A stretch of 64,000 nt of DNA from Desulfoplanes formicivorans (GTDB lineage Bacteria; Desulfobacterota; Desulfovibrionia; Desulfovibrionales; Desulfomicrobiaceae), in NCBI RefSeq assembly GCF_001748225.1, contig NZ_BDFE01000020.1:1-64000 (forward strand), in the 5' to 3' direction. This document shows, piece after piece, positions 496-41,565 of this stretch. The stretch's first letter is position 1. Each line of letters opens with the position of its first letter. The notes under the pieces are model-generated. The model saw only the letters and a program-made list of their open reading frames with translations. It was not told the origin of the DNA and did no database searches. A program made the position numbers and the translations under genes.

Positions 496-2050
496 GCTTT
501 TACCCCCTGCTCGCCTTCAATCTCGGCCACGATGGCATCAATGTCTGCGCGAAGCTGGTCGATGCGGCTGACTGTGGCTTTGAGCTCCGCATTCAACTTG
601 TCGATATCAATGACTTCACGGGTGTCTTTGGCTTTCACATAGCTGCTGACAGAAAGGTTGTAGTTGTTGTCGGCGATCTGTTCATGGGGCACGGACTTGG
701 CAAAGTAGTCGATGTTTTCCTTGCTGTCGAACACGGCCATGATTTTATCGATATGTTCATCCAGCAGCACATTGTTGTTGGTCTCTTTTTTAAAGAGTTC
801 GCTGGCGTCGATAAACTGGGTGTAGGTGTCGGGCTTGTGTTTGGAGAGCACCAGGATATTCACGGCGATGGTGGTGCCGAAAAACAGGTTGGGCGCCAGG
901 GAAATCACCGTTTCTACATAGTTGTTGTCCACCAGATACTGGCGGATTTTTTTTTCTGCTCCGCGTCGGTAGAAGATGCCCGGGAAGCAGACAATGGCGG
1001 CGCGTCCTTTGCCGGAAAGGTAACTGAGTGCATGGAGCACAAAGGCAAAGTCGGCCTTGGATTTGGGAGGGAGCACACCTGCCGGGGCAAAGCGATCATC
1101 GTTAATCAGGGTGGGATCATCTTTGCCGATCCATTTTACCGAATATGGCGGGTTGGAGACAATGGCATCAAAGGGCTTGTCATCCAGAAAATGCGGGTTG
1201 GTCAGGGTATCACCCAGCTGGATATTGAACTTGTCGTAGTTGATGTTGTGCAAAAACATGTTCATCCGCGCCAGGTTGTAGGTGGTGTGATTGATCTCCT
1301 GACCAAAGAAACCATCTTCAATGATATGGGCGTCAAAGTGTTTTTTGGCCTGTAGCAGCAGTGATCCTGAGCCGCAGGCCGGGTCATAAATTTTGTTAAC
1401 GGTTTTCTGTTTGTGCATGGCCAGCCGGGCAATGAGCCTGGAAACATGCTGGGGAGTAAAAATTCACCCCCGGATTTACCCGCATTGGCTGCGTAGTTGG
1501 AGATGAGGAACTCGTAGGCATCGCCAAAAAGGTCTATGTGGTTGCCATGGAAATCACCAAAATCCAGCCCGGCCACCCCTTTGAGTACCGCGGCCAGGCG
1601 TCTGTTTTTGTCCGCCACGGTGTTGCCCAGGCGATTGCTGGTGGTATCAAAATCGGCAAACAGGCCTTTGATATCATTTTCGGACGGATAGCCGCCGGCA
1701 GACGCCTCGATAGCGGTAAAGATTTCGGCTAAATCGGTGTTCAGGCTTTCATTGGTGTTGGCATTTTTGACGACGTTGGCAAACAGCTGGCTGGGGTAGA
1801 TGAAGTATCCCTTTGTTTTAACGGCGTCGTCTTTAATTTCAGGGGTGATGACGCTGTCGGGCAGTTCAGCGTAATGAATACTTTCATCATCTGCTTCCAT
1901 GTAACTGGCAAAGTTTTCGCTGATAAATCGGTAAAACAGGGTGCCAAGGACGTATTGTTTGAAATCCCAGCCGTCCACGGCGCCGCGTACATCGTTGGCA
2001 ATGGCCCAGATCTGGCGCTGCAGGGCGGAACGTTGTTGTGAGCTTGTCAT
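492..2050 (-). pseudogene. hsdM: Type I DNA methyltransferase HsdM, interrupted by one frameshift
   Basis: Modification subunit of a type I restriction system (N6-adenine methyltransferase). The N-terminal part (from [15 protein letters not shown], start at 2050) has the HsdM N-terminal helical domain. The C-terminal part carries the SAM-binding motif [10 protein letters not shown] and the catalytic motif NPPY. The two parts lie in different frames. The switch is at the A run 1458-1462: on the coding strand GAATTTTTACTCCC gives EFLLP, but one extra T would give [11 protein letters not shown], the expected family sequence, and rejoin both halves into about 518 residues, the normal length. The Met at 2050 is preferred to one at 2086 because family members begin there. 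A real mutation, a slippage switch and a sequencing error are all possible. No hsdR is visible. Confidence 0.85.
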
Positions 2051-38333: not shown

Positions 38334-39386
38334 TCAGTCTGTTTCTGGGGTCACGACCCTGTGGCCGCCACTTTGCTTGCCCTTGTAGAGCAGTTTGTCC
38401 ACCCGATGGATCAGCTCCTGAATGGGAATGGGCTGCTGGGGACCGATGCACATGGCTCCGGCAGAAATGGACACCTCATGTCCCGATGGCAGGGCCTTGA
38501 AAACATGATTGCTGACATCATCCAGGATGCGTTGGGCTATGCATCGGGTCTGCTCGGGACCTGTCTGGGGCAGAAGGATCACGAATTCATCCCCTCCGTA
38601 GCGACAGACAATGTCGATGTCCCTGCGTAATCCCTGGGAGATCTTCCCGGCAAATTCCACCAGAACCTGGTCACCGACCACATGGCCGAAGCGATCGTTG
38701 ATCGTCTTGAACTCATCTATATCCATGAGGATGATGCCGAGATAGTGAGGGGTGCGTTTCATTTTGGCCATTTCTTCATTGGCCCTGATTTCGAAATACC
38801 GCCGGACATGCACGCCAGTAAGTCCGTCAACAACAGCCAGTTCAAAAAGGTGCATGTTCTCCAGGGAGAGGGCAAAGATCGATGCCAGGACCCTGAGACG
38901 TTGCACGGTTTCAAATTCCAGGGGGTGGTTGTCGATGGTCAGTGTGACCACCGCCATGAGTTGCTTGGAGGATCGGGCCACGGGGATGCACAATCCCTGG
39001 GTCAGGTTCGATGTCTGTTGGGACGTGATCCAGGGGAAAACGTTCAGGTCCAGGAAACATTCCCGTATTTCGTGGGACATGATGATTTCGTGTTCCGGGG
39101 AACCCTTTTTCAGAGAGCAGGCCCTGGAGGAAAAGGTGGTTTTGCCGTGATCAAAAGACCCTTCCTCGGTGAGATTGAGCTTTTTTTCGTCCACGGTCAT
39201 GATCCCCACCTGCTGTGTCCTGGAGAAATCGGCAAAGGTTTCCAGTGCCGTCTGGATCAAAGTCTTTTTGTCGGTAATGGCCATGAACAGCCGGGTGGCG
39301 TAATTGAGGATGAAGAGTTCTTCATCCCACCCGGGACTTTTGGGGGGGCAATGGTTGCCAGAAGGTGGTGATCCGTTTTTGGTCAT
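38334..39386 (-). CDS. GAF-like sensor with GGDEF diguanylate cyclase
   Basis: A 350-residue cyclic di-GMP synthase. Residues 20-180 resemble a GAF sensor (ATRLFMAITDKKTLIQTALETFADFS, then GLCIPVARSSKQLMAVVTL). The GGDEF domain follows with LMDIDEFKTINDRFGHVVGD and the active GGDEF at 264-268. Five residues before it, Arg255-x-x-Asp258 forms a canonical inhibitory I-site, so product feedback is expected, unlike the cyclase at 33426. There are no membrane spans. It may sense an intracellular ligand. Confidence 0.92.
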   Translation of the reverse strand: MTKNGSPPSGNHCPPKSPGWDEELFILNYATRLFMAITDKKTLIQTALETFADFSRTQQVGIMTVDEKKLNLTEEGSFDHGKTTFSSRACSLKKGSPEHEIIMSHEIRECFLDLNVFPWITSQQTSNLTQGLCIPVARSSKQLMAVVTLTIDNHPLEFETVQRLRVLASIFALSLENMHLFELAVVDGLTGVHVRRYFEIRANEEMAKMKRTPHYLGIILMDIDEFKTINDRFGHVVGDQVLVEFAGKISQGLRRDIDIVCRYGGDEFVILLPQTGPEQTRCIAQRILDDVSNHVFKALPSGHEVSISAGAMCIGPQQPIPIQELIHRVDKLLYKGKQSGGHRVVTPETD

Positions 39387-39395
39387 GGTAACCTG

Positions 39396-39614
39396 TTATG
39401 TTTCAAGGAGCTTTACAATGGTCTCTGGAGGCGGAATCTTCCCTGTTTGGCGTTTGGAATAGATTGTTTTCCCCTCTTTGACCACCTCGAAATCGCCGGT
39501 TTGTCCCGGAGTAAGGGTGACCGTGCAGTCCAGGGCGTCTTGCAGGGCAGCCGCCAGACCGGCGGCCTTGGGATAATAGTTTCAAACCGTGCAATAGAAT
39601 ATTTCGATGTTCAT
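39396..39614 (-). CDS. SelW-like (Rdx family) selenoprotein, Sec encoded by in-frame UGA
   Basis: A 72-residue thioredoxin-fold redox protein, readable only if UGA at 39584-39582 is decoded as selenocysteine. It begins MNIEIFYCTV, then Sec11 and NYYPKAAGLAAALQDAL. The redox motif is therefore Cys8-Thr-Val-Sec11 (CxxU), the position of CxxC or CxxU in SelW/Rdx proteins, directly after the first beta strand as expected. The rest (CTVTLTPGQTGDFEVV, then GKTIYSKRQTGKIPP) matches the family pattern, including the GxFEV and G-K-x-P segments. AAGGA lies 7 bases before the ATG. A SECIS-like hairpin follows the UGA. Conventional gene calling would miss or split it. The homology call rests on recognised motifs. 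Confidence 0.88.
39550..39584 (-). promoter_or_regulatory. Bacterial SECIS-like element
   Basis: On the mRNA the UGA (39584-39582) is followed after 15 bases by GCCGCC, loop GGUCU, GGCGGC (39566-39550). This is a 6-bp GC stem with the same GGUCU loop as the E. coli fdhF SECIS, at a suitable distance for SelB to act. Confidence 0.82.
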
Positions 39615-39667
39615 GGCTGATCCTTTTCCGGGGAAGTTCTGCCATTGCTGGCGTGCATGTCCCCATG

Positions 39668-41350
39668 CTATTTCTTTTTGGCCCAGGAATCCCTTATGGT
39701 GACAGTTCGGTTGTAGACCGGCATGCCCTGGTCGTTGTCCCTACTGTCCCGGCAGAAAAATCCCTGACGTTCGAACTGGAATCCCTGCTCGGGACGACCT
39801 TGGGCCAGAGCGGGATCGGCCTTGCACCCCGTCAGGATACGCAGGGATTCGGGATTGATGAACTCCTTGAAATCCTTGCCCTTGTCCGCAGTGGGAAAGG
39901 GAACCGAGAACATCCGGTCGTAGAGGCGCACTTCGATATCCAGGGCATGGCGGGCCGAAACCCAGTGCAGGGTCCCCTTGACCTTGCGTCCGTCAGGAGC
40001 GTCCCCGCCCCGGCTGGCCGGGTCATGGGTGCAATGGATTTCCTTGATGGCGCCGGTTGTTGTATCCCGGATCACCTGGGTACAGGTGACCAGATAGGCA
40101 CCGCGTAGACGCACTTCCCGTCCGGGAGCAAGGCGGAAGAATTTTTTGGGCGGGTTTTCCAGAAAATCATCCTTTTCAATGTAGATTTCCCGGCAAAAGG
40201 GCACCTTTCTCGTTCCCATGGCCGGATTCTTGGGATGCACGGGGAGTTCGAAATATTCTTCCTGGTCGTTGGGATAGTCGGTGAGAACGATTTTCAGGGG
40301 CTTGAGCACGGCCATGGTTCTCGGAGCCGTATCATTGAGGGCATCGCGCACGCAGCTTTCCAGCACTCCCATGTCCACGCAGCTGTCCTTGCGGCTCACC
40401 CCGATGCGTTCACAAAAGGCACGGATGGCCTCAGGGGGAAAGCCCCGCCTGCGCATTCCTGACAGGGTGGGCATGCGGGGATCGTCCCATCCGTCCACCA
40501 GTCCTTCCCGGACCAGTTCATGGAGTTTGCGTTTGCTGGTTACCGTATAATTGATGTTCAGCCGGGCAAATTCGATCTGTACAGGGTGGCAGGGAACGCT
40601 CACATGGTCGAGGATCCAGTCGTACAAGGGCTTGTGGTCCGCGAATTCAAGGGTGCACAGGGAATGGGTAATGCCTTCCAGGGCATCGGAAATGCAGTGG
40701 GCGAAATCGTACATGGGATAGATGCACCACGTTGTTCCCGTTCGCGGGTGCGGGGTCTTGATGATCCTGTAGATGACGGGATCGCGCATGTTCATGTTGG
40801 GGGAGTTCATGTCGATTTTGGCCCTGAGAACATGGGTTCCTTCCTCGAATTCTCCCTGGCGCATCCTGGCGAACAGATCCAGGTTTTCCTCAACCGAGCG
40901 GTTGCGAAAGGGGCTTTCCTTGCCGGGCTCGGTCAGAGTACCCCTGTAGGCGCGGATGTCCTCGGCCGAAAGTTCGCACACATAGGCCAGATTTTTTTGG
41001 ATCAATTCAACAGCCAGGTTGTACAGGGTTTCAAAATAATCCGATGCATGGCACGGTGTATTGCCAAAGGAAAATCCAAGCCATGTGACATCGCGGATGA
41101 TCGCGTCAATATATGTCTGTTCTTCCTTGGCAGGGTTGCTGTCATCAAAGCGGAGGTTGCAATGGCTGCCTGCATAGGATTCGGCAAGACCGAAATTGAG
41201 ACAGATGGACTTGGCATGTCCGATGTGCAGGAAACCGTTGGGCTCGGGGGGAAATCGGGTCACGATGTGCGCGTGCTTGCCCTGGGCAAGATCCTTGTCA
41301 ATGATGGCTTTGATGAAATGGGATGAGGGGGTTGATGCTGGTGTTGTCAT
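39668..41350 (-). CDS. glnS: Glutaminyl-tRNA synthetase
   Basis: A class I synthetase that charges tRNA-Gln directly. Its presence implies that the cell does not rely only on transamidation. PPEPNGFLHIGHAKS is the HIGH-type motif and VTSKRKLHELV the KMSKS-type region. DDSNPAKEEQTYIDAI and YPMYDFAHCISDALEGITHSLCTLEF are diagnostic, and the C-terminal beta-barrel anticodon domain is present (to GMPVYNRTVTIRDSW). 560 residues. The ATG at 41350 is preferred because AAGGA precedes it by 7 bases. Confidence 0.96.
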   Translation of the reverse strand: MTTPASTPSSHFIKAIIDKDLAQGKHAHIVTRFPPEPNGFLHIGHAKSICLNFGLAESYAGSHCNLRFDDSNPAKEEQTYIDAIIRDVTWLGFSFGNTPCHASDYFETLYNLAVELIQKNLAYVCELSAEDIRAYRGTLTEPGKESPFRNRSVEENLDLFARMRQGEFEEGTHVLRAKIDMNSPNMNMRDPVIYRIIKTPHPRTGTTWCIYPMYDFAHCISDALEGITHSLCTLEFADHKPLYDWILDHVSVPCHPVQIEFARLNINYTVTSKRKLHELVREGLVDGWDDPRMPTLSGMRRRGFPPEAIRAFCERIGVSRKDSCVDMGVLESCVRDALNDTAPRTMAVLKPLKIVLTDYPNDQEEYFELPVHPKNPAMGTRKVPFCREIYIEKDDFLENPPKKFFRLAPGREVRLRGAYLVTCTQVIRDTTTGAIKEIHCTHDPASRGGDAPDGRKVKGTLHWVSARHALDIEVRLYDRMFSVPFPTADKGKDFKEFINPESLRILTGCKADPALAQGRPEQGFQFERQGFFCRDSRDNDQGMPVYNRTVTIRDSWAKKK

Positions 41351-41565
41351 GCGTTGATCCTTGATTGATAGGCAGAGTGCAGAAAACAGAAAAAAGATGA
41401 CGGAACGAAAAGATGTGTCATTCCGGACATGCTCCAGGATATCTCCCCGGCGGGCTTTGCCTGGATGGTGGGGCACAAGGCGGTCTGCCGGTGTTGTGCC
41501 GAGGAGCACGGGGAGAGAAGGACGTTCACGAAAGGCAATGGGCTGACGCGATCATTCAGCGCAGT

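Follow-up and report, generated by a model that had tools for sequence, protein, structure and literature searches.

Does the minus strand at positions 39396 to 39614 of the window, the whole 64,000-nucleotide stretch of DNA analysed from the sulfate reducer Desulfoplanes formicivorans, encode a small selenoprotein whose internal UGA is read as selenocysteine (Sec), or does translation end at that codon? A plain list of open reading frames has at this locus only an out-of-frame 87-aa ORF (39403-39666, minus strand), and a selW-like gene is easily missed by standard gene finders. Considering the frame, its relatives, the Sec genes of the organism and the RNA downstream of the codon together, the locus is almost certainly a functional SelW-like (Rdx) selenoprotein gene in which codon 11, a UGA, specifies Sec.

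The reading frame and its protein family

The sequence-only reading had described a 72-residue frame on the minus strand with UGA at codon 11 and AAGGA ahead of the ATG, and direct reading of the DNA confirmed each of these elements:

39396..39614, minus strand: selW-like gene of 72 codons plus TAA, assigned by translation, PF10262 and TIGR02174
39582..39584, minus strand: UGA at codon 11, the predicted Sec codon of the CxxU motif, read directly; relatives have TGA in this motif too
39621..39625, minus strand: a Shine-Dalgarno-like AAGGA, placed 6 nt ahead of the start codon (ATG at 39614), read directly

Translation of 39396-39614 gives a single in-frame TGA and a TAA at the end. With TGA written as U, the product is MNIEIFYCTVUNYYPKAAGLAAALQDALDCTVTLTPGQTGDFEVVKEGKTIYSKRQTGKIPPPETIVKLLET, and its redox motif, C8-T-V-U11, is located near the N-terminus. 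When U was replaced by C, the product matched PF10262 (Rdx) with an E value of 1.1e-15 and 58 bits (cut-off 22.6), the match spanning residues 2-71 of the protein and positions 1-73 of the 74 in the profile. TIGR02174 (CXXU_selWTH) gave 44.8 bits, above its cut-off of 34.2. The kinship with Rdx/SelW proteins proposed earlier is thus borne out by two profiles, both over their cut-offs. As judged by its score of 73.9 bits, which is under the curated cut-off of 88, the product falls outside NF041051 (SelTWH_Campy), a Campylobacter equivalog.

Across 12 aligned Rdx members, with U shown as C, the columns of the CxxU motif are invariant, and the Desulfoplanes product is 39-51% identical to the aligned relatives. 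Solved structures among the Rdx relatives comprise several SelW-related bacterial proteins and the eukaryotic selenoprotein W (PDB 2npb), a member of the same family with a weak sequence match (E 0.002). The CxxU/CxxC site is common to eukaryotic selenoprotein W and the Rdx family, and the Desulfoplanes protein is the shorter of the two. A second Rdx-like match in the same genome (C20:102301-102537, 21.5 bits), which lies below the cut-off and contains a TAG, was discarded as a chance match.

Selenocysteine genes and conservation of the UGA

The sequence-only reading had implied a functional Sec machinery in this organism. The search of its genome, 3,000,979 bases in 26 contigs, revealed all four of selA, selB, selC and selD. 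The tRNA-Sec (selC) has a score of 82.4 bits, which exceeds the Rfam cut-off and is well clear of the next tRNA-like match (44.5). On contig C17, selB (409.7 bits) and selA (617 bits) are separated by about 1.6 kb, and the same contig carries selD (333 bits; L034 1480-2560), which has an internal in-frame TGA within KSVKAAGUAAK. SelD itself is a likely selenoprotein, because this TGA falls in the active-site stretch AAGUAAK; other Sec-containing SelD proteins also carry U in the corresponding stretch.

Elsewhere in the genome, one TGA each is present in three molybdopterin oxidoreductase matches (C16:273617-274894, C15:637259-638710 and C20:87125-88582), which are probably formate dehydrogenases, and in two NiFeSe hydrogenase matches (C16:63061-64104 and C8:132983-133345). 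These five matches probably represent additional selenoproteins, consistent with an active Sec trait.

Conservation of the codon was followed at two distances. Rdx matches occur in 16 of 101 close genomes, the organism's own included (15 of the 100 relatives); every one of them has a single TGA, is otherwise free of internal stops, and gives YCxxU when read through. An even sample of 395 genomes from the phylum yielded 53 with a matching gene. TGA is found inside it in 51 cases, of which 50 have one TGA and nothing else and the remaining one has a TAG in addition. The other two have no stop, and the one of them that was read (L081) carries Cys at this position (YCTQC). CxxU is likewise present in MAG homologues from Acidobacteria, Aminicenantes, Planctomycetota, Phycisphaerae and Calditrichia. 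Wherever relatives were read, residue 11 corresponds to TGA or Cys and to no other residue. Since dozens of independent genomes carry the TGA in this gene, a sequencing error or a fresh nonsense mutation is excluded for practical purposes. Judged by the Rdx homology of the whole post-UGA part and by the retention of the TGA in distant relatives, the frame is beyond chance.

Within the class, of which 348 genomes were searched, SelW-like matches are confined to the Desulfomicrobiaceae, so that this family keeps a SelW-like selenoprotein for which the remaining genomes of the class gave no match. Homologues were absent from the plasmid records and viral contigs searched. In the same-genus relative (G001, L023 899-1057) CTVU is kept and about 18 residues are missing in frame from the second half, a gap that takes in the conserved YSK stretch; this copy may be a decaying gene, a minimal form or an assembly fault. 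A third genus of the family (G003) has a more divergent Rdx gene, in which the profile match begins past the motif. Reading upstream of that match (L058, about 1480-1720, minus strand) gives RVCSLU with TGA, and the gene adjoins one for a 'RCQGDLMTPGTI' protein (L058 1721-2161), similar to a gene beside the Desulfomicrobium copy (L013 1740-2036).

The hairpin downstream of the UGA and the decoding of codon 11

Shortly after the UGA the transcript can fold into a small hairpin:

39549..39567, minus strand: bSECIS-type hairpin GGCCGCC-GGUCU-GGCGGCU, spanning +15 to +33 relative to the UGA, with the loop from +22

The published bSECIS model comprises a loop of 3-9 nt with G in the first two loop positions, a stem of 4-16 bp, a loop located 16-37 nt after the UGA and an MFE of at most -7.5 kcal/mol (PMC13188914). 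The Desulfoplanes hairpin, with its 7-bp stem, GGUCU loop and -13.2 kcal/mol, lies within all of these limits. The Rfam search of the locus gave no match to a SECIS family, the 61-nt fold around and after the UGA is not better than that of shuffled sequences (z +0.83), and among synonymous recodings 8% reach an equal stem length and 26% an equal MFE. As the hairpin taken alone is unexceptional against such recodings, the case for it is built on comparison with relatives.

In 25 distinct sequences, 90.7% of the stem cells are paired versus 77.3% after shuffling, and 15 stem cells show changes on both sides versus 2.4. The covariation score reaches 0.387 versus 0.123, with 0 of 500 shuffles as high, a comparison that is inflated by the presence of related sequences. 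Slid controls, which keep the relatedness, all score 0.111 or less, although the use of the window sequence as the reference structure favours the unslid version, chiefly in the percentage paired. The stem reads CCGCC/GGCGG in Desulfoplanes, CCGCA/UGCGG in Desulfomicrobium, and CUUCC/GGAAG and CUGCU/AGCAG elsewhere. The Desulfomicrobium change from C-G to A-U is synonymous, falling on the third position of one Ala codon and one Leu codon. In the same-genus relative two pairs have become G-U and U-G with the stem kept. The family thus offers a clean set for bSECIS evolution, in which the stem covaries and the codons still give roughly A-A-[GS]-L-A. The E. coli fdhF SECIS has a small stem and a GGUC-type loop shortly after its UGA, features that the Desulfoplanes hairpin would share; the stem sequences differ, and no bulged U was identified in the Desulfoplanes hairpin. 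Desulfoplanes has its SECIS-type element within the reading frame, immediately past the UGA, whereas that of eukaryotic selenoprotein W is in the 3' UTR.

The covarying hairpin adds a mechanism to the Sec reading. In the proposed route, SelD would generate selenophosphate, which SelA would use to produce Sec-tRNA-Sec, and SelB would dock on the bSECIS just past the UGA, bringing Sec-tRNA-Sec to the ribosome. This route of Sec decoding through SelA, SelB and SelD is established for bacteria, and it is from these parts that we infer actual Sec insertion at codon 11. The product would be small and have a thioredoxin fold, and its CxxU pair could form a reversible selenenyl-sulfide. Judging by the family, the protein would most likely serve other proteins as a thiol/selenol redox partner.

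Other explanations of the locus have to be weighed against Sec decoding. Were the UGA a real stop, the gene would produce the 10-residue peptide or the 87-aa ORF, the two products that the standard code gives. However, the Sec frame matches the Rdx family over its whole length and is conserved past the UGA, and the 87-aa ORF is expected to be incidental, as it occupies the same DNA as that frame; termination at codon 11 therefore deserves next to no credence. The locus could also be a pseudogene or a sequencing error, derived from a former Cys-type SelW by a change of TGC or TGT to TGA. One base separates these codons, and part of the domain has indeed been lost in the same-genus relative, but the TGA in all matching relatives and in nearly the whole phylum set, the protein sequence conserved on both sides of it, the complete Sec machinery and the covarying stem reduce the probability of such an origin to a minute one.

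Sec at residue 11 is a prediction, and the codon could in principle be read by another route, as a different amino acid or by suppression or read-through. This is extremely improbable given that the TGA stands exactly at the redox Cys position, occupied by Cys in the YCTQC homologue, and that a SelB gene and a bSECIS-type hairpin are both present. Sec decoding of the UGA as part of CxxU in a SelW-like protein, as first put forward, is supported by profiles, machinery, relatives and the covarying hairpin.

Known SelW-like selenoproteins and the gene neighbourhood

SelW-like selenoproteins have been tabulated for the Deltaproteobacteria Desulfotalea psychrophila and Geobacter sulfurreducens and also for Desulfotomaculum reducens (PMC1794560), and the family is included, as CxxU with PF10262, in an up-to-date catalogue of selenoproteins from prokaryotes (PMC13188914). 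It is already known from many anaerobic bacteria, and from Deltaproteobacteria since at least 2006; the Desulfoplanes gene is real and not surprising. Like the bacterial SelW-like selenoproteins (PF10262; TIGR02174), its product is a small Rdx protein with CxxU near the N-terminus, encoded with a bSECIS-type hairpin directly after the UGA in a host with SelA, SelB, SelC and SelD, and no difference of substance was found between them. The SelW genes of Epsilonproteobacteria in particular have been missed altogether by annotation (PMC4607533), as the sequence-only reading had supposed for the gene here. The genome paper of Desulfoplanes formicivorans Pf12B contains no word beginning with 'selen' (PMC5460402). 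The result is chiefly a correction of annotation, by which Desulfoplanes gains one selenoprotein, probably unannotated.

The gene is placed between two others of the same orientation:

39668..41509, minus strand: glnS-type gene for glutaminyl-tRNA synthetase, the upstream neighbour; the coordinates are those of the longest ORF, and the true start probably lies inside it
38334..39386, minus strand: downstream neighbour, GGDEF diguanylate cyclase, whose ATG is 9 nt beyond the stop codon of selW

The stop of the glnS-type gene is 53 nt before the selW ATG, and neither promoter-like nor terminator-like sites were found on the minus strand across the glnS-selW-GGDEF stretch. This absence is compatible with co-transcription, though of little weight as proof. 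We consider it highly improbable that the tight cluster reflects a functional tie of the Desulfoplanes selenoprotein to tRNA-Gln charging or c-di-GMP signalling; such a tie, if true, would mean that redox state or selenium feeds into one of these processes. The same gene order is kept in the same-genus relative, and in Desulfomicrobium (G012) the neighbours of the selW-like gene differ, so that its neighbourhood is not fixed across the family.
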